DNA from: a virus
Length of the DNA stretch: 64,000 nt
Reading direction: 5' to 3' (one strand)
IMG/VR virus record: IMGVR_UViG_3300042888_002988
Span: 124,001 to 188,000 of that record
Shown: positions 33,068 to 63,961 of the stretch, one piece after another
Position numbering within the stretch: the stretch's first letter is position 1
Layout: every line of letters begins with the position of its first letter
Notes under the pieces: generated by a model
Databases searched by the model: none
What the model saw: only the letters and a program-made list of their open reading frames with translations
What the model was told of the DNA's origin: nothing
Made by a program: the position numbers and the translations under genes

Positions 33068-33499
33068 GGGGGCGTTCTGGTTTCGACATGATTGTTGAAG
33101 GCATTACCCGCACGTGGTGGTTGATCGGCAGGCCACCTTAAAAGCCGTTCAAAACAAACAAATGCCAACTCCAACGAGTTCGCGATGACCTCCGCCGAAG
33201 CAGACGCTTTGCTCGCCAATGGTATCGCCGCCCCAACGGGCGTCGAAGCCGGCGCGCTCGCAGCTGCCTAAGCAGACTGTCATCCCACGTGGGTTCCGCC
33301 GGTATACCGGGGCCTGCGCAGGACAACCAATGTATTCCTTAGAGCCAGGTAACACTGGCGGGCAGCCCGGGAAGACGGGATAGGTCTCAAGCCCCGAATG
33401 GTGCGATAGGGTGTCTCGGCCCGATAACTGAGACTAAACGTGTAGAAAGTATGCTTGACGTAATTGTGGACAGGGGTTCGACTCCCCTCGCCTCCACCA
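33068..33499 (+). ncRNA. ssrA: Phage-encoded tmRNA
   Basis: tmRNA rescues stalled ribosomes by acting first as tRNA and then as mRNA for a degradation tag. The 5' end (33068) starts GGGGGCG, followed by TTCTGGTTTCGAC, the conserved tmRNA start. The 3' end has GGACAGGGGTTCGACTCCCC, CGCCTCC and an encoded CCA at 33497-33499. The first seven bases pair fully with CGCCTCC (one G-U). A tag frame from GCC at 33164 to TAA at 33269-33271 encodes 35 residues starting ANSNEFAMTS and ending EAGALAAA. The start with Ala and ALAA-type end match known tags, but 35 residues is long. Size 432 nt, one-piece form. Confidence 0.92.
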
Positions 33500-33507
33500 T
33501 TTCCCAC

Positions 33508-33586
33508 GGCAGGGTAGCTCAGTCTGGTCCAGAGCAACGGGCTCATAATCCGTAGGTCGGTGGTTCGAATCCACCCCCTGCCACCA
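33508..33586 (+). tRNA. tRNA with CAU anticodon (Met or Ile2)
   Basis: A full cloverleaf starts eight bases after the tmRNA end. Acceptor stem GGCAGGG (33508-33514) pairs with CCCTGCC (33576-33582), followed by A and an encoded CCA. D stem is GCTC/GAGC. The anticodon stem ACGGG/TCCGT holds loop CTCATAA with CAT at 33544-33546. T arm is GGTGG/CCACC with TTCGAAT. The G1-C72 pair argues against initiator tRNA. Elongator Met and lysidine-modified Ile cannot be told apart from sequence. Confidence 0.92.
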
Positions 33587-33588
33587 AT

Positions 33589-33657
33589 GCCCGCTCAGTA
33601 TCCCCTGCGCCAGTTTACCCCACGGGGTCTAGCAACGCAGGGGGCAACTGAGCGGGC
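33589..33657 (+). other. Long hairpin after tRNA
   Basis: An 11-bp stem (GCCCGCTCAGT with ACTGAGCGGGC) encloses a second stem CCCCTGCG/CGCAGGGG and a small CCCC/GGGG hairpin. This is a strong structured RNA, not followed by a T run. It may be a processing signal, terminator or small RNA. Confidence 0.7.
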
Positions 33658-33667
33658 GCCATTTTCC

Positions 33668-33688
33668 GGACCCCCTTACCACGGGTCC
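33668..33688 (+). other. Short hairpin in RNA island
   Basis: A 6-bp perfect stem GGACCC/GGGTCC with a nine-base loop sits between two larger hairpins. Confidence 0.6.
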
Positions 33689-33699
33689 CCTCCACAAAC

Positions 33700-33760
33700 G
33701 TCACAGCTCCGCCTGGCATGAAGCCGCGGACTGAGACCCGCTTGGGAGCGGGGCTGTGAC
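33700..33760 (+). other. 13-bp stem hairpin in RNA island
   Basis: The 13-base arm at 33700-33712 (GTCACAGCTCCGC) pairs with 33748-33760 (GCGGGGCTGTGAC) with one T-G wobble. The 35-base loop is G/C-rich and may fold further. No T run follows. Confidence 0.7.
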
Positions 33761-33780
33761 ACAAACATCTTCCCGTATGG

Positions 33781-33872
33781 GAGCCAGGGCTGGTTGCCTA
33801 TCCGATTATCCGCCGCCGTGGGACGCCACGACGGACATCGGTGGGGTAGGGTTCGAGTCCCTCCCTTGGTTC
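33781..33872 (+). ncRNA. Structured RNA with tRNA-like T arm
   Basis: A 9-bp closing helix joins 33781-33789 (GAGCCAGGG) with 33864-33872 (CCTTGGTTC). Inside lie CCGAT/ATCGG (33802-33806 with 33837-33841) and an inner CCG.CGTGG/CCACG.CGG hairpin with a GACG loop. A T-arm-like hairpin with TTCGAGT at about 33852-33858 completes it. It is not a normal cloverleaf and the tail is TCA-like rather than CCA. It may be a degenerate tRNA or a distinct RNA. Confidence 0.45.
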
Positions 33873-33878
33873 ACGATT

Positions 33879-33958
33879 TCGCAGGTAGCTCAGACTGGTA
33901 GAGCATCGGTGCCAACACTTACCGAGGGTCGTAGGTTCAAATCCTACCCTGTGATCCA
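33879..33958 (+). tRNA. tRNA-like gene with 10-nt anticodon loop
   Basis: All arms of a tRNA are present. Acceptor TCGCAGG (33879-33885) pairs with CCTGTGA (33948-33954), followed by T and an encoded CCA. D stem is GCTC/GAGC; T arm is GTAGG/CCTAC with TTCAAAT. The anticodon stem TCGGT/ACCGA, however, encloses ten bases (GCCAACACTT, 33911-33920) instead of seven. A G-U closing pair would leave an eight-base loop. The anticodon cannot be assigned. It may be a frameshift-suppressor type, a recently mutated gene or a tRNA mimic. Confidence 0.65.
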
Positions 33959-34239: not shown

Positions 34240-34267
34240 GCCGGCGGGGTAGCGCTACCCCGCCGGC
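34240..34267. repeat. Perfect 28-bp palindrome
   Basis: The left arm GCCGGCGGGGTAGC is followed directly by its exact reverse complement. It is preceded by an A-rich stretch (aagagaaaa), so on the minus strand it would read as a terminator followed by T residues. Confidence 0.8.
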
Positions 34268-35136: not shown

Positions 35137-37113
35137 TCACCCGCCCACGTAGCCGCCATCGAACATGTCGCCCATCCGGGTGCCAAGGTCGTTGGGGATC
35201 GCGATGCCAAACATGGTCCGCAGCTCGTCCATGATCTGCTTGTTCGGGATCAGCGGCTCCTGGTTCACGATGCGCTTCATCATGCAGGCGTAGTTGGTGG
35301 CCATCAGGAAGTCATCCGCCCGAGCCCCGTGCTTGATGTAGCGCATGATCGTCCGGCCCGAGGGCGCCTCGGTGATGTTCCGGCGGACGTTCAAGCAGTC
35401 CAGAGCAAACGAGCTGGAGTCATCCCACCGCGGCCAGGTGATCATCCCGTCCTTGATGTCGGCCAGCACGGCTGAGATCGAGTCCGACCGGTGAAGCGAC
35501 ATGATGTTCGACTCCGGGTGTGGAATGCGATCGAGCATCAGCTTGGTGTCGGTGTATTGGAAGTGGATCAGCATGTTTGTGGGGATCGCGCCGCAGTCCC
35601 GCATGAAGGCATTGTAGTAAGCGCCTCCGCCGTTGTCGGTGCCCATGGCGAACGACTTGAACCGGTTGTGGGCGGCCACGATGGTCTGAGCGACATCGCG
35701 GTAATTCATCCCAGCGTAGCGGTGAGCGTAGAGCAGGTCCATCCGACCCTCAGGAGTCATCCCGTAGATCACGTGCACCGTGTAGGAGAGCTTCGACCGG
35801 TAGGCCGGCTCCCAGTCAGAACCTCCCCAGTCGACGCCGGAGAACACCCTGGTGTAGCGCACGGTCTCCTCGAAGTAATCCGACTGGGTCTTCTTGAAGG
35901 TCTTGTCGGTGCAGCACTTCTTCAGATCCGCCTCGCTGAGCTCGGTCATCCCGGACTCCACCGCGATTCCCCAGATTTCCTGGAGGAACTTTTTGAACTG
36001 ACCATTCTGGGTATACCGTTGGTAATACTGCCAGATGTCCATGAAGCGCTTGCCCTGCGCATACTCCGGCACGATCACCTGCGGAAGGTGGAAGCTCGGC
36101 ATGTTGACGTTGAGCCTTGATCGATCCTCGTGGACGAACTCGCCGGCCATCGGGTTGAGCTTGATATGCTTGTTGTCCGGGCAGCGCAGGCCTTCCGGTG
36201 AGACCATCATGTTCGGAATGATTTCCGGATCCCCCAGGGAGTGGAACTTCTTCGGGCAGGAACAGGGGATGTGCCATACGCCACGGCTGCCTAGCCGATA
36301 CTGTGCTTCGAGGCAGGTATCGAGGTCCTTGGAGGTGCCGGCGAAGATGGTGAGCCGGTCGTCGGGGAAGGCTTTCTGGACCTGCTCGATCTCAGGTAAA
36401 TGCTCGGCATCGAAATCCTGCGCTTCGTCTATCAGGACTGATGGAACCGAGTTGCCCCGAATTTTACTGGGGTCAGTTAGAATGTGCATTAACTTCAGAG
36501 AACCGCCGGACGGTGCCTCTTTGTAATACATGTTATTGCGGTAGCCGCGGCTCGCAAAGTAGGACGGAGGACATACTGATCCGCGCTGCATGTCGAGCAT
36601 TTTATCAGCGATCGTCTTGCTCTGCTCCTTGAGCGGAGTCAGGTAAATCGCGCGGTAGTTCGGGAACACGCAGAACTTGAGAAGCTCCGCTCCGCACAGC
36701 CCAGTCGAATTATGACTGGCGATCCCGGACGTGAAATACGTGTGCTCTTTGGAATCCACCCGCAGATCGAACAGCTCGCGCAGTTCCCCCAGGGGCTCGC
36801 AGCTGGTGACCATCTGCCAATCGTGCTCAGTCAATACCCAGTCACCCACCAGGATCTGATCCACCTGCGTGAAGCCACTCGTCCCGTTCACCAAATGCTT
36901 GCCGGCGCACTCCAGCGTGAATTCACGCGTCTGGAGTCGCCATACCGGCATGGGAATAGTGCGATAGGCATGTGTGACTTTTACAAAACCACCCCCAGGA
37001 GCGGCGACTTTTATGTCAAGATGCTCCAAGGATCGTTCCTCAGCTATTTCGTTTTCCAGCAGCACGGAGTCCACCGTAAGCCGCGAACGGAGCAGCGTCA
37101 AGATGATGACCAC
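35137..37113 (-). CDS. terL: Large terminase C-terminal half with C-intein
   Basis: This 658-residue precursor would contribute the C-terminal part of the ATPase-nuclease that packages DNA. Residues 1 to about 135 are a C-intein: TLECAGKHLVNG and VGDWV form block B-like text, and FDLRVDSKEHTYFTSGIASH then N135 form blocks F and G. Ser136 is the +1 residue. The extein resumes STGLCGAELLKF, completing Walker A begun in the other half. VLIDEAQDF is Walker B. SGVDWGGS, GTDNGGGAYYNAF and ADDFLMATNY supply nuclease Asp residues. Start is GTG at 37113, though a later GTG is possible. The N-half lies upstream at 38170-38601, with an unrelated gene between. Confidence 0.85.
   Translation of the reverse strand: MVIILTLLRSRLTVDSVLLENEIAEERSLEHLDIKVAAPGGGFVKVTHAYRTIPMPVWRLQTREFTLECAGKHLVNGTSGFTQVDQILVGDWVLTEHDWQMVTSCEPLGELRELFDLRVDSKEHTYFTSGIASHNSTGLCGAELLKFCVFPNYRAIYLTPLKEQSKTIADKMLDMQRGSVCPPSYFASRGYRNNMYYKEAPSGGSLKLMHILTDPSKIRGNSVPSVLIDEAQDFDAEHLPEIEQVQKAFPDDRLTIFAGTSKDLDTCLEAQYRLGSRGVWHIPCSCPKKFHSLGDPEIIPNMMVSPEGLRCPDNKHIKLNPMAGEFVHEDRSRLNVNMPSFHLPQVIVPEYAQGKRFMDIWQYYQRYTQNGQFKKFLQEIWGIAVESGMTELSEADLKKCCTDKTFKKTQSDYFEETVRYTRVFSGVDWGGSDWEPAYRSKLSYTVHVIYGMTPEGRMDLLYAHRYAGMNYRDVAQTIVAAHNRFKSFAMGTDNGGGAYYNAFMRDCGAIPTNMLIHFQYTDTKLMLDRIPHPESNIMSLHRSDSISAVLADIKDGMITWPRWDDSSSFALDCLNVRRNITEAPSGRTIMRYIKHGARADDFLMATNYACMMKRIVNQEPLIPNKQIMDELRTMFGIAIPNDLGTRMGDMFDGGYVGG
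36709..37113 (-). other. C-intein (IntC) segment
   Basis: Codons for about 135 residues end at Asn (36709-36711), directly before the +1 Ser. The His-Asn end, the block B and block F/G text and a Walker A interruption identify it. It has no endonuclease domain. It resembles the atypically split terminase inteins known from environmental viruses, such as AceL-TerL, in which the N part is very short. Confidence 0.85.
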
Positions 37114-37304
37114 GCAAGCAGATGCGGCGTGGTGTCACTTATAAAGCGCAGGAAGAACGGCTCGCGCTGGAGCGACCGTGCGCACCAATCCCCATTACGG
37201 ACGAAGGGGGCGCCGCATGTTTCCATAGGCTTGCAGCCTACTCATGCCGTGTTATTGTCGTCCTCAGCCACACATTGAACGCTACCCAACCACTACCCAC
37301 ACAC
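37114..37304. promoter_or_regulatory. Divergent region between terminase half and inserted gene
   Basis: About 190 bases separate the minus-strand start at 37113 from the + start at 37305. An in-frame extension of the + gene covers it but is less likely coding. It contains tataaa at about 37140 and an A/C-rich leader. It presumably holds promoters for one or both genes. Confidence 0.4.
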
Positions 37305-38189
37305 ATGCAATGGGCTCCTCGCCCAGCTCCCTACCTGCCCGGGCTTCACAGCGCCCAGGCGACGAACAGCAACGAGCGGATACCGTTCGTCTCTGTGTAT
37401 CGCACCAAAGCCAAGGCCGCAGCGGATTGGATCCGTGGCTGCAAGCTTGCCACCGGCACATCCTCGTTCTTCCTGCGCAGCGACGAGCAGGACGTGAAGC
37501 TCTACGATTACCGCGGCAGGTTCGTGAAGAACCTGGAGGCACCCACGTTCAAGGCCACGCCGGAGCTCGAAGACAGCATCCCAGTGGATCGCGATTTCAT
37601 GGTGCATGAGGCGCGGGAGGCCACCAAGCAGCCTCAGCTGTCGCTGCTCGTCTGCGCGGAAGACCACGCCGGCGCCAGCGCTGCCGACCATTCGAACTTC
37701 GTCATTGTCTGCAGGCGCATGCTCATCGAGGCCTCCGCCGCGGACCTGGAGCATTTCTATGTAGTGGAGAGCCAGCGCTGGCCGTGCCGCATGACGGGCA
37801 TCTACGCAAACGTCTCCGCGCTGTCGCCGGCCATGCAGGACATCTACCTGGAGCGATTCAAGTGGCTCAGCAACAGCTGGCCGCTGAATGCCCGGCACCA
37901 CCTGGACATGCTGGCCGACCGGCTGGTGCGATCCAGGTCGCGCTACGTGACCGACCTACTGCAGGACTGCGGACACGCCGCCCGTATGCCGCAGGACCTG
38001 ATTCTGACCCTGCAGTCGAAGTGGATGCTGGCGTCGCCGGGATCCAAGTATCGGTTCGCGCAGCACTTGGTGGAGACGCTCCGGGAAGGTCTGCTGTTCG
38101 AAATCAACCAGGCTGAGGTGTTCGCGCCGTCCATCGTGGACAGCCACGGGGCGGCGGTCGTCAAGGAATTCAGGCAAATCCTGCGCTGA
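37305..38189 (+). CDS. Unknown protein inserted within the split terminase
   Basis: This 294-residue protein is encoded opposite to the two terminase halves and lies between them; its last 20 bases overlap the end of the N-half. The ATG at 37305 follows the A/C-rich leader caaccactacccacacac, like other genes here. The sequence has no HNH, GIY-YIG, LAGLIDADG or VSR-like motif that I can see. In other fractured genes the gap holds a free homing endonuclease, so this could be a new nuclease family or an unrelated passenger. It has mixed helical content and several Cys. Function unknown. Confidence 0.65.
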   Translation: MQWAPRPAPYLPGLHSAQATNSNERIPFVSVYRTKAKAAADWIRGCKLATGTSSFFLRSDEQDVKLYDYRGRFVKNLEAPTFKATPELEDSIPVDRDFMVHEAREATKQPQLSLLVCAEDHAGASAADHSNFVIVCRRMLIEASAADLEHFYVVESQRWPCRMTGIYANVSALSPAMQDIYLERFKWLSNSWPLNARHHLDMLADRLVRSRSRYVTDLLQDCGHAARMPQDLILTLQSKWMLASPGSKYRFAQHLVETLREGLLFEINQAEVFAPSIVDSHGAAVVKEFRQILR

Positions 38190-38268
38190 CCGGCAGTCCC
38201 TGATCGAAAATTGCGCGCAGAGTCACACGTCCGTGATTGGTCTCCACGGGCGTGTCGCCGTCGGCGCA
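38170..38268 (-). other. N-intein (IntN), 32 residues
   Basis: The segment runs from Cys112 (codon 38266-38268) to the stop. The very short length, the block A sequence and insertion inside a P-loop fit atypically split terminase inteins. Confidence 0.85.
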
Positions 38269-38601
38269 CTTGCCCACCTGCCGGCCCGCTTTCAGGGTGA
38301 TCACACTGCCCGGGGTCATGGCTGTCATGGCGAACATGAAGGGGCGGGAGCTGAAATCCAGTGGTGTGTCGAACGGATACCTGGGGAAGAACCTGGGGAT
38401 CAGCAGACCGAAGTTGAAACCGCACAGCGGCAGCAAAGCACCCTCGGCATCCATGATGTCCTGGCGAGTGGCCTTGCCATTTGAGTAGTCCGCTGATACT
38501 GTGTCGATGCGCTTCATGGCGGCGGTGACCAACGCCGCCTGCTGGGGGTCCTTCCTCAGCTCGCTGATGAGGTCATAAACAAATTTACCTTGTGCCGCCA
38601 T
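38170..38601 (-). CDS. terL: Large terminase N-terminal half with N-intein
   Basis: This 143-residue precursor has an N-extein (1-111) that ends in LKAGRQVGK, the first part of the Walker A motif. Cys112 begins CADGDTPVETNHGRV, a typical intein block A. Only 32 intein residues follow before the stop (38170-38172). Splicing with the C half would give GRQVGK-STGLCG, a complete Walker A, and a terminase of about 634 residues. Neither half can work alone. Its start codon at 38601 overlaps the start of a + strand ORF at 38600 (shared CATG), so regulation of the two may be linked. Confidence 0.88.
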   Translation of the reverse strand: MAAQGKFVYDLISELRKDPQQAALVTAAMKRIDTVSADYSNGKATRQDIMDAEGALLPLCGFNFGLLIPRFFPRYPFDTPLDFSSRPFMFAMTAMTPGSVITLKAGRQVGKCADGDTPVETNHGRVTLRAIFDQGLPVSAGFA

Positions 38602-59948: not shown

Positions 59949-60210
59949 ATCTGAAAATGCAAAGTTAAGGGCAGCCCTCGAGAAGTTCGTGAGCTGCATC
60001 AACGTCACCGGCGGAATGCTGAAATACGAGTCAGGGAACATCGCCGGATGCGGCGGAGACCCGGAGTGGATCGACTTGTCGGATGCCTACGTGGTGGCTT
60101 GCGAGGCGCTGGGTATTGAGCCCAAGACCCAGCTGGTAGCTGACGACGATTACGAAGGCGGCACCGAGAGCATCTTGGATATAGTTTCGAAGGAGGCATC
60201 GGATGAGTGA
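59941..60210 (+). CDS. Small acidic protein before polymerase
   Basis: This 89-residue, acidic protein has two or three Cys. Overlaps both neighbours by eight bases. The polymerase start is preceded by aaggaggc inside this gene. Unknown function, perhaps a polymerase partner by location. Confidence 0.55.
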   Translation: MSESENAKLRAALEKFVSCINVTGGMLKYESGNIAGCGGDPEWIDLSDAYVVACEALGIEPKTQLVADDDYEGGTESILDIVSKEASDE

Positions 60211-63200
60211 TCGACCACAGTCACGCCGGGGCATGACCCTGGAAGAACGGCAGCCCGATTACGAGGACCTGTCGAAGTGCCCCAAGACCCTGACGAAGAC
60301 ACGCCACATCGACGACGTGCTCTACGTCGCCGGCCGAGCCCCGATCGAAGGCCAGGCTGAATACGGCGTCATGTTCGTGACGTCGTCCGTCGAGGAGGAG
60401 GAAGCCACCACCGCTGCCAACTCAGTGTTCGGGATGCGGATCACCCAACCCGCGGAATACCTGAAGGGTGCCACCGGCATCATTAAGGACGTCGCACTGC
60501 GGGCTGGCATCGACCTCGACAAGTGCTACTACACCGCGTGCTGCAAATGGCTACTACCCCGGACGCAGCGGGCCAAGCCGGCGAAGAAGATCATGAAGTG
60601 GGGCATGCCGGTGCTGGAAGACGAGATCAAACGGGTGAAGCCGAAGATTATCGTCTGTCTGGGCAAGCACGTGTTCGACATGGTCAGCCCACAGAAGATC
60701 AGCTTCGACGACGCCCACGGCTGCTGGTTCTGGTCGGAGGACTACCAGGCCCACCTCTACGTGATGTATGCCCCCTTCACGCTGGTCGGCAAGCCCGAGT
60801 TCTACGAGACGTTCCGCGTCGACTTCAAGGAGGTCGCACGGCGGAAGGAGATCCTCGACAACGGTGGCTCGATTACCGGCCGACCCTTCCAGCACCAGGT
60901 CATCCGCGACATGGACGCTCTGGAGGACTGGCTCGACCACATCGAGACGCTTGTGGAGGAAGACCGCTGGCCGGGGCATAAGGACGAGAACGGGCACCCG
61001 CTGCTGGCGGTGGACTGTGAATGGCACGGTCGAACCCACGTCGACGGCAAGCTGCGCACGATCCAGTTCGCCTGGTCGGAGACGGATGCCGTGGTGATCG
61101 AGTTCCGGGACGAGAAGACGGAGTGGAGCTTTGAGATGGGTAGCTGCGAGGACCTGCCGCCGCTCGATCCGGAAAATCCGCTGGCCGTTAAATTGAATGG
61201 AATGCTGAGCGACCTGGATTTGGCGAACGTCGCGGATGGCCTGATCGACTCGCGTGATTTCGTTGAAGCCTACCTCGGCAACTTCGATCCGGAGCTGGAA
61301 ACGAAAAGTAGGAGCGATATTGACAACGGCAAATTGAAGCTGGGGAAGGAGTTCACGGTCCACATGATCACCATGGGAAGCGACACGTGCGCTGTCTGCG
61401 GCGAGGAAGAATGCGACCACCTGCGCGTGAATCGCAACGGCGACGCTATCGCCCCGGATGCGTTCCGGCAGATGCCACGCGGCCCGTCCGAGTATCAGCC
61501 ACCACCAGCCGATCGTATCGCCCAGCGCATGGCAGAACTGGAGCTGGAACACCGCGCCCGCTACAAGGCAATCGGCAAGCGTCTCAACCACACCACGGAG
61601 AAGATCAAAGCCCGTTACATCGGTCACCACTACGCGGCTGACGCCCCGTGGATGAGCCACACCCTGGGGATGGAGATCTACCAACGCTGCGAGCTGGACA
61701 CCGAGTTCGCCCAGCAGACCGTGGACGAGTCCAGCGAGCTGGGACTGGAGCGTGGCATCGCGATGAAGTACACGAACCTGGGTCGCTACGACTATGACCT
61801 GATGATGTGGAAGCGGGAGAACAAGGAACTCTGCAAGGGCGGCTACGGCTTCATCCCGTCAAAGATCATCCACCCATACGGCGCAGCTGACGTCATCACA
61901 CCATACCGGGCCTACCCGATGATCAAGCGGCAGCTGGAGGCCCAACGTCTGTGGGCCTACTACAGGGACATCTTCAACCCGTTCGTCACGGACGTCTTCA
62001 CCGAATTCACGATGACCGGGCTACCGATGGACGTGGACACGATGAACGACCTACGGGACCTGTTCACGTTCACGAAGGACCGCCTCAACAAGAAGCTGAA
62101 GCTCAGGATCGCCAAGGAGGCTACCCAGAAGCTCAAGCGCAAGCTCATGCAGACGTTCGGCGTGATGGCTGCCAAGGTCTGCTCAGTGACGATCGACGCC
62201 CGCAACGCCGAGATGCTCCGCAACACGGTGAAGCAGCTGCTGCTCGATACCGGCAAGCTGGTGGACGTCCCCAAGTGGAACAAGATCATCGCTCACTGGG
62301 AAGAGGCACCAGCGTTCAACATCCGATCCCCTGACCAGATGGCCAGGTGGCTGTTCGACTTCGAGGAGCTCATCCCGATCAAGTCCACCAACCAGAAAGC
62401 CAAGGGCCTTCCCAGCATGGCGTGGGAGAAGGTGCTGGAGCTTCCAGCCGACCGCCAGGCGATGTTCAAGCCGGCCGTAGACAAGCAGACGCTCGCGATC
62501 CTCTCGGAGCAGCTGCCGGCGATCGACGAGCTTCTGAATTTGAATGCCGTCGGCAACTTGTCGAAGGCATTCCTCAAGGAGCCGGACGTTTACGTCGACG
62601 AGGATACCGGTGAGGAAGTGACCGAGGAACACGGGCTGCATGCATGGCTCGCAAGTGATGGTAGGGTGCACGGACAGATGTCGGCCACGGAAACTGGTAG
62701 ACCTCGCAGTTGGGCCCCGAACACACTCAACTGGCCATCCTATGTCAACAAGAGAGTTGCTATATCGGTGGCTACTTGCGTGCAGGAAGCATTCGAAGAA
62801 GGTGACTTGCCGGAAAATCTACTGAAGTGGGTTGGAGCTACACCAGATGACTTGCCTTCTATCAGATCATGTGTTAAGGTGCCCGAGGGATGGATAGCCG
62901 TCGAATCCGATTATGCAACTGCGGAGATGGTTGCACTTGCTATCATATCAGGTGACAAAGACTTAATGCGTATCTTGTTCGATCCGGATCCTGAATGGGC
63001 CGTGTTAAAGCATAAGAAGCACGGAGCGTCGGTGGTGCGAGTAGCATTCACCGATCCAAAACTTTCAGGCGTCCCGGAGAGCGCGCGAAGCAACAAGTTC
63101 CTGATGCATGTGTGGGCGGCAGGTGAATGCCTTGGACCAGTGGATGATTCTGATCTGCTGCGGGACAATGACGGCAACATTGTGCATGCCAAGTATGACA

Positions 63201-63961
63201 TTCACTGGTCGCTGGTGGAGCGCACCTACGGCAAGTATCGCGAGATGATGAAGGCCAAGGTCGATCGCAACGCCGCCAAGGTCCTCAACTTCTCCAGTGC
63301 CTACGGTGCTTCTAGTAGTTCGCTGGAGCGCAAGATCGAATCCGACACAGGCGTCAAGCCCGAGGAAGGAACCGGCGAACGCGGACTGGAAGCCATTCGG
63401 GAACGCCAGCCCCGGGCGACAGAGTTTCTGGAGGAGATGGCCAAGGTGCCGAAGGAGCGCGGAATGTATCGCGCCGCTTCCGGTCGCATCCGGCACTGCC
63501 TGTCACACTCGGCAGGTAGCGGAGTCGGCTGGCGCCAACGCAACTCGATCGACAGCGCGCTGGGCCGGGAGATGCGGAACTTTCCCATGCAGGAGTCCGT
63601 CGGCGCCACGTCGGCTCGGGCGTGCAAATGGCTGCTCAAGGCCTACCGCAAGCTCAAGCTGCAGGCGCGCCCGCTGACCTGTCTCTATGACTCTGTGGTG
63701 ACGATCTGCCCACTGGAGGAACGCTTCTTGGTTGCCCGGCTTCACCAGCTATGCATGTCGGTCCACAACACCTGGGCCTACAGCGATGACTACGGGGATC
63801 GGACGCTGACCTATACGATCGACAACGAGTTCAATTACCGATGGTCCACCCGTCCGAGCGACGAAGACCAGAAGCAGTTGGATGACCGCACCTGGCACGC
63901 GCCGGACAGCAAGTTGACGTTCTTGGAGCAGCACGCAAATCTGTGGCAGTTGGTGTCATAA
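60203..63961 (+). CDS. Family A DNA polymerase with UDG-like N-terminus
   Basis: This 1252-residue protein combines three parts. Residues 1 to about 215 resemble a uracil-DNA glycosylase family domain (VMFVTSS, GIIKDVALRAGIDL, YYTACCKW, KPKIIVCLGK). Residues about 260-560 are a 3'-5' exonuclease (LLAVDCEWHG; GHHYAADAPWM; a later Tyr/Asp helix) with a long insert near 325-430. About 600-1252 is a family A polymerase: motif A VESDYATAEM at 900-909, motif B K1026 with FSSAYG near 1030-1035, and motif C LYDSV with D1163 where HDE is usual. AGGAGG precedes ATG. UDG-polymerase fusions are known in some phages. Confidence 0.88.
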   Translation: MSDRPQSRRGMTLEERQPDYEDLSKCPKTLTKTRHIDDVLYVAGRAPIEGQAEYGVMFVTSSVEEEEATTAANSVFGMRITQPAEYLKGATGIIKDVALRAGIDLDKCYYTACCKWLLPRTQRAKPAKKIMKWGMPVLEDEIKRVKPKIIVCLGKHVFDMVSPQKISFDDAHGCWFWSEDYQAHLYVMYAPFTLVGKPEFYETFRVDFKEVARRKEILDNGGSITGRPFQHQVIRDMDALEDWLDHIETLVEEDRWPGHKDENGHPLLAVDCEWHGRTHVDGKLRTIQFAWSETDAVVIEFRDEKTEWSFEMGSCEDLPPLDPENPLAVKLNGMLSDLDLANVADGLIDSRDFVEAYLGNFDPELETKSRSDIDNGKLKLGKEFTVHMITMGSDTCAVCGEEECDHLRVNRNGDAIAPDAFRQMPRGPSEYQPPPADRIAQRMAELELEHRARYKAIGKRLNHTTEKIKARYIGHHYAADAPWMSHTLGMEIYQRCELDTEFAQQTVDESSELGLERGIAMKYTNLGRYDYDLMMWKRENKELCKGGYGFIPSKIIHPYGAADVITPYRAYPMIKRQLEAQRLWAYYRDIFNPFVTDVFTEFTMTGLPMDVDTMNDLRDLFTFTKDRLNKKLKLRIAKEATQKLKRKLMQTFGVMAAKVCSVTIDARNAEMLRNTVKQLLLDTGKLVDVPKWNKIIAHWEEAPAFNIRSPDQMARWLFDFEELIPIKSTNQKAKGLPSMAWEKVLELPADRQAMFKPAVDKQTLAILSEQLPAIDELLNLNAVGNLSKAFLKEPDVYVDEDTGEEVTEEHGLHAWLASDGRVHGQMSATETGRPRSWAPNTLNWPSYVNKRVAISVATCVQEAFEEGDLPENLLKWVGATPDDLPSIRSCVKVPEGWIAVESDYATAEMVALAIISGDKDLMRILFDPDPEWAVLKHKKHGASVVRVAFTDPKLSGVPESARSNKFLMHVWAAGECLGPVDDSDLLRDNDGNIVHAKYDIHWSLVERTYGKYREMMKAKVDRNAAKVLNFSSAYGASSSSLERKIESDTGVKPEEGTGERGLEAIRERQPRATEFLEEMAKVPKERGMYRAASGRIRHCLSHSAGSGVGWRQRNSIDSALGREMRNFPMQESVGATSARACKWLLKAYRKLKLQARPLTCLYDSVVTICPLEERFLVARLHQLCMSVHNTWAYSDDYGDRTLTYTIDNEFNYRWSTRPSDEDQKQLDDRTWHAPDSKLTFLEQHANLWQLVS
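61208..61286 (+). repeat. 79-bp segment shared with baseplate J gene
   Basis: This segment matches 18741-18819 at 69 of 79 bases, same frame. It encodes polymerase residues about 335-361 in an insert within the exonuclease domain. Flanking DNA is AT-richer than the gene average. Confidence 0.9.
62640..63180 (+). other. Lower-GC patch around polymerase motif A
   Basis: In this stretch the coding sequence has many A/T third positions and rarer codons (ATA, TTA, AGA), unlike the rest of the gene. It covers the region around motif A. A recombination or co-conversion tract is possible. Confidence 0.5.

Follow-up and report, generated by a model that had tools for sequence, protein, structure and literature searches.

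The window analysed here, a stretch of 64,000 nucleotides (positions 124,001 to 188,000) of the virus record IMGVR_UViG_3300042888_002988, contains a one-piece transfer-messenger RNA (tmRNA) gene, ssrA, of 432 nt. ARAGORN and Rfam placed its ends identically (Table 1), and the covariance model RF00023, which has a gathering score of 47, matched it over the full length (1-374) with 127.2 bits (E 2.4e-49). It is the sole tmRNA of the 200,158-base record. The two strands of the acceptor stem form all seven pairs, including a G3-U70 wobble, which is the identity element of alanyl-tRNA synthetase, and this wobble was kept in 16 of 16 tmRNAs while acceptor-stem pairs covaried. The initial annotation of this DNA had claimed a phage tmRNA at this position and a tRNA-like domain with encoded CCA, and both claims were borne out by these results; phage tmRNAs as such, whose existence it took as known, were present in 402 of the 18,146 phage genomes of one survey (PMC9004378). 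A second, permuted tmRNA called by ARAGORN at 33407-33850 overlaps the 3' end of the true gene, is without Rfam support, and was rejected.

The tag was read from the resume codon GCC at 33164, 13 nt 3' of the pseudoknot PK1, in a frame of 35 codons. The base context of this frame is AAAT before GCC, with an A at position -4, as was found in all 21 long-tag tmRNAs compared (that of the window and 20 related viral ones). In Escherichia coli tmRNA the frame is set mainly by A86, which precedes the resume codon by four bases (PMC2481249). ARAGORN reported another tag, GPAQDNQCIP (gene offset 243), which has no A at -4 (TATACCG before GGG) and sits in the pseudoknot region. The frame at 33164 was preferred because of the A at -4 and the homology to 20 related viral tags; judged by sequence, the ARAGORN tag call for the window is a mis-call and the 33164 frame is the right one. 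The frame proposed in the initial annotation, 35 codons starting with Ala and ending in ALAAA, was retained on this evidence: ARAGORN does place the resume codon elsewhere, and the 20 related viral tmRNAs favoured 33164. The remark that 35 codons is beyond the usual held in that the tag is long, but it lies at the extreme of the known range of 8-35 residues, not past it (review, PMC8012679). The C-terminus, ...GALAAA, is a Clp-type, LAA-like ending and a predicted degron, and the tags of nearly all relatives end in LAA, VAA or MAA.

Twenty further viral records contained tmRNA tags of about 29-34 codons with the shared pattern A-[PM]-[ST]-V-AEADA-[ILFV]-L-x-x-x-G-[FYW]-x-x-A-E-x-L-A-A, and RF00023 scored above its cut-off in 20 of the 20 long-tag records tested. 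The tmRNAs were searched with AE-x-[DE]-A after the resume codon and with the residues preceding that motif; the survey is biased towards AE-x-[DE]-A, and its counts are lower bounds that include near-duplicates. One member, L064 (IMGVR_UViG_3300009158_000035, 168 kb), was found in viral contigs by the tag-start pattern ANSNEFA; its tag is ANSNEFAPSVAEADAILASFGYQDAEVLLAA, and it too was mis-called by ARAGORN. L064, L121, L157, L193, L221, L230, L231, L232, L237, L242, L243, L260 and others share with the window the tag core, the tRNA-like domain and the resume context, and many of the viral long-tag tmRNAs adjoin terL, as does that of the window. The window tag, of at least 29 codons, has AE-x-[DE]-A at codons 11-15 (A11 E12 A13 D14 A15). 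It differs from the family in its 35 codons, in MTS for PSV, in the apparently missing G-[FYW] turn and in its LAAA end, and its last third, LANGIAAPTGVEAGALAAA, matched the G-[FYW]...A-E-x-L-AA part of most members weakly, best in L232 (p 0.002). Tag starts differ among the phages (AN, AE, AK or GK). The AE-x-[DE]-A search pattern also hit ordinary protein genes, mostly in frames of more than 50 codons and without tRNA-like ends, and the DNA pattern GACTAAACGTGTAGAA gave 38 loci in viral contigs, none of them a tmRNA. A tblastn search of the tags against phage records gave nothing; this null is uninformative because the known Bixzunavirus tag, surely in the collection, was also missed, probably through low-complexity masking. 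A search of open-access papers did not find the exact tag strings, though the family may be noted elsewhere, for example on the tmRNA Website. By its residues, then, the window tag is a member of a conserved viral tag family of which no description was found in the open-access literature.

Table 1. Features of the tmRNA gene and its small RNA island in the window, and tags of related viral tmRNAs.
Feature	Position	Strand	Sequence or evidence
One-piece tmRNA (ssrA) gene	33068-33499	+	ARAGORN; RF00023; sole tmRNA of record
Acceptor stem 5' strand, tRNA-like domain	33068-33074	+	GGGGGCG; 7/7 pairs with 33489-33495
Pseudoknot PK1	33116-33150	+	PK1-like stems GGTGG 33116-33120/CCACC 33133-33137 and CGGC 33126-33129/GCCG 33144-33147; sequence reading, aligned to RF00023 PK1 positions
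Tag frame	33164-33271	+	GCC 33164; 35 codons, ANSNEFAMTSAEADALLANGIAAPTGVEAGALAAA (33164-33268); TAA 33269-33271; A at -4; homologous tags in 20 viral tmRNAs
Internal tag motif	33185-33217	+	MTSAEADALLA (family [PM][ST]V-AEADA-[ILFV]-L-x); tag alignment columns 12-22
Acceptor stem 3' strand, discriminator, CCA	33489-33499	+	CGCCTCC (33489-33495), discriminator A, encoded CCA; pairs with 33068-33074
tRNA, CAT anticodon, encoded CCA, same island	33508-33586	+	ARAGORN; Rfam 71 bits
tRNA-like gene, anticodon loop of 8-10 nt	33879-33958	+	CCAACACT or GCCAACACTT; ARAGORN four-base anticodon AACA; Rfam 52 bits
Tag of L121			ANDQSFAMTVAEADALLNSFEFEAAEALAA
Tag of L157			ANALDMAPSLAEADAILARFGFVEEALAA
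Tag of L221			AESFDYAPSVAEADAFLEATGFVGAELLAA
Tag of L230			ANSDIDMELAPSVAEADAILAKYGYAEEELQLAA
Tag of L231			ANTVNVDFAPSVAEADAVLARFGYVNAEAVAA
Tag of L242			ANNVDMAPSVAEADAILAKHGWAEEAAVAA
Tag of L232			GKHQFAPTVAEADAILARFGYAEAGELAAA

Across all columns of the tag alignment, the ratio of the proportions of nonsynonymous and synonymous differences (pN/pS) was 0.45. Because the search patterns fix part of the core, the columns that they left free (21-39) were examined separately, and here codon positions 1, 2 and 3 differed in 33%, 41% and 69% of comparisons, and pN was lower than pS in 66 of 66 representative pairs, which are not independent of one another. Third positions differed in 61-69% of comparisons in the core and the 3' half, which is near saturation, while positions 1 and 2 were conserved. 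The second tag halves of phages with unrelated flanks were far more similar than shuffled sequences (p < 0.01 in most AEADA-family pairs). Since the amino acids are conserved while silent sites are near saturated, these alignments indicate that the tag peptide is under purifying selection in several groups of phages. In many tmRNAs the tag frame joins helices with its 3' part, and conservation might come from the structure of the messenger part as RNA and not from the peptide, but with third positions so different and first and second positions conserved this is scarcely credible. The RNA might also be a decoy or inhibitor that merely titrates host SmpB, its tag frame untranslated, as was suggested for phage DS6A, whose tmRNA consists of the tRNA-like domain only (PMC4131195). 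In the long-tag tmRNAs the full-length structure, PK1, the resume context and the stop are all kept and the peptide is under selection, which makes a decoy very unlikely.

The window tag resembles a bacterial tag (ANSNEF...LAA) opened by an insert of about 20-25 residues, at the centre of which is the conserved AEADA[IL]L segment. Such a host-like start and end would be expected of an ordinary captured host tmRNA that supplies an extra dosage of normal rescue, the insert being tolerated filler and the tag only an LAA degron, and short-tag tmRNAs are indeed found in many phages, including those of Streptomyces and Enterococcus (9-13 codons). Filler would drift, yet the amino acids of the insert are conserved across groups with silent sites near saturated, and the sampled Acidobacteriota tags, which vary widely, are of about 8-11 residues with the long-tag motif in none; a simple capture is thus considered unlikely. 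Among bacteria, three Acidobacteriota (Blastocatellia/Pyrinomonadaceae) have the tag ANSNEFALAA, which has the first seven residues (ANSNEFA) and the LAA-type end in common with the window, but has 10 codons and no insert and belongs to a tmRNA with a different tRNA-like domain sequence. The tag start ANSNEFA points to Acidobacteriota as host, but given the different tRNA-like domain and the variety of tags in that phylum this is a lead only. The tag motif had two matches in 396 Acidobacteriota genomes, a search covering one bacterial phylum, and neither was in a tmRNA.

Multisubunit RNA polymerase pieces, DNA polymerase A, NAD ligase and terminase are encoded by the window virus, a jumbo-type phage of ~200 kb. 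Twelve records, including that of the window, combined a long-tag tmRNA with a terminase that could be recognised by its similarity to that of the window (mostly 23-25% identity). In 11 of the 12 the distance between tmRNA and terL is 1.6-5.4 kb, with 1.6 kb in the window and 4.3-5.4 kb in 10 relatives, and the two genes are convergent. This shared position suggests that the gene is probably ancestral in the jumbo-phage clade. The flanking genes of other carriers (L157, L230/L233, L228/L242, L243, L231 and L232) are unrelated to those of the jumbo clade, and T4-like genes were present in some of them. The motif was sampled in only one bacterial phylum, and the long tag could have been inherited unchanged from an unsampled long-tag bacterial lineage, with nothing viral about it; its presence in several phage groups with tag starts of AN, AE, AK and GK, and its place beside terL throughout one phage clade, make such an inheritance distinctly improbable.

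AlphaFold2 predicted two short helices around the insert, one of them at tag residues 10-18, and the AEADA[IL]L segment probably folds into a helix, with a turn and another short helix after it. The favoured reading, which is considered likely, is a working phage tmRNA that performs trans-translation with host SmpB and whose tag combines a host-like start and LAA end with a conserved middle acting as a second recognition signal. The suggestion in the initial annotation that the phage may bring its own ribosome rescue or redirect tagged proteins is compatible with these results. None of 22 records, the 200 kb record of the window included, yielded an smpB, and host SmpB would therefore be needed. 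Host alanyl-tRNA synthetase would charge the phage tmRNA through G3-U70, and host SmpB would deliver it to ribosomes that have stalled on broken mRNAs, where translation would resume at GCC 33164 and add Ala plus the 35 encoded residues. Tagged proteins would be expected to yield C-terminal peptides containing AMTSAEADALLA, and the LAA-type end may pass them on to ClpXP of the host or a comparable protease. The conserved insert could then be recognised by a protease, adaptor or other partner, which would tune what becomes of tagged proteins in the infected cell. A bolder version, in which unrelated large-phage groups share a virus-specific two-helix tag module that is read by a dedicated factor and through which the phage decides what happens to proteins released from stalled ribosomes, is possible but rather doubtful.

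Several observations weigh against a working tmRNA with a recognition signal in its tag. The closest relatives of the window virus, with a terL of 77% identity, share its gene order but have a shorter interval without a tmRNA, so the gene can be lost and is dispensable there, and the lack of a phage smpB makes any function depend on the host. Within the family the window tag diverges most: its first half is typical, its last half matches the others weakly (shuffle p 0.002-0.24), and it ends in LAAA, not LAA. Confidence in the helix models is middling (predicted local distance difference test scores of 78 and 69; predicted template modelling score < 0.4), and searching the PDB with the tag, by fold and by sequence, gave nothing meaningful. 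The transcript of the window tmRNA and the tagged peptides are predictions from the gene, and the partner that would bind the insert is hypothetical.

The tRNA-like gene with the enlarged anticodon loop in the same island as the tmRNA (Table 1) is possibly a frameshift-decoding or non-decoding tRNA. Further tRNA-like sequences lie near both the window and L064 tmRNAs (window 33783-33876, plus strand; L064:7804-7902, plus strand), each showing a putative acceptor stem and T arm and an abnormal, extended anticodon region; minimum free energy prediction gave no tRNA fold for 33783-33876. Downstream of the island is a perfect GC-rich hairpin at 34240-34267 (GCCGGCGGGGTAGCGCTACCCCGCCGGC). Promoter and terminator scans near the tmRNA gave hits at chance level only. 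Beyond it, terL seems to be divided by an atypical split intein into parts at 35137-37113 and 38170-38601, both on the minus strand, with an open reading frame on the opposite strand between them (37122-38189). The N-part ends in ...LKAGRQVGK followed by CADGDTPVETNHGRVTLRAIFDQGLPVSAGFA and the stop, a 31-residue N-intein, and the C-part opens with a long C-intein ending in ...SGIASHN before STG, an arrangement that presumably resembles the AceL-TerL type. The window also encodes a 1252-aa protein in which DNA polymerase A is combined with a uracil-DNA-glycosylase domain and a 3'-5' exonuclease (60203-63961, plus strand). The 613-aa protein encoded at L009:6277-8118 (record position about 66277) contains an adenylosuccinate synthetase domain, which may bear on modified-base DNA.

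Phage tmRNAs and tags of 8-35 residues were already known, and conserved AEADA-type long viral tags appear to be new here. Purifying selection on the tag peptide in several phage groups implies that the tag itself, beyond ribosome release, matters to these phages, and the AEADA-type tags provide a concrete sequence for asking by which protease or adaptor such tags are read and what becomes of the host and phage proteins that bear them.

Among known tmRNA-bearing phages are the Bixzunaviruses (PMC4131195), and in phage Wildcat the tmRNA is the most highly expressed lytic gene (PMC7474061). The Bixzunavirus (mycobacteriophage Bxz1/I3) tag, ATDTDATVTDAEIEAFF[AN]EEAAALV, has 25 codons, and like that of the window it is long, belongs to a one-piece phage tmRNA among tRNAs, and has AE-x-[ED]-A from codon 11. 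The motif is AEIEA there and AEADA in the window, which lacks the AEIEA[FY] core and the ALV end. Mycobacterium and Gordonia phage tags have 25-28 codons and AEIEA cores, the latter including BlueNGold (EEANAPVVTEADFAEIEAFANSEAAALV) and GodonK (AEADVVVSDSDIAEIEAYANEAALV). The Gordonia phages share with the window family long tags with AE-x-[DE]-A, but are actinophages with an ALV end and a motif shifted by a few codons. The 529-nt tmRNA of GodonK (MK620899; L105:1005-1533; RF00023 90 bits) is unannotated in the record, which has a tRNA-His annotated within the 5' part of the tmRNA. Similarity to the Bixzunavirus tag beyond the motif is weak, so a common origin is conjectural, and kinship of the Mycobacterium and Gordonia AEIEA tags with the AEADA family is suggestive only. 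Bixzunavirus in Mycobacterium smegmatis, with its AEIEA-core tag, is a possible laboratory model. A long tag that is read by another protease is known from Mesoplasma florum (Mollicutes), where the longer tag is recognised by Lon rather than ClpXP (PMC9382460); that tag is bacterial and ends in NYAFA, and the likeness to the window lies in the length of the tag, with no sequence similarity claimed.
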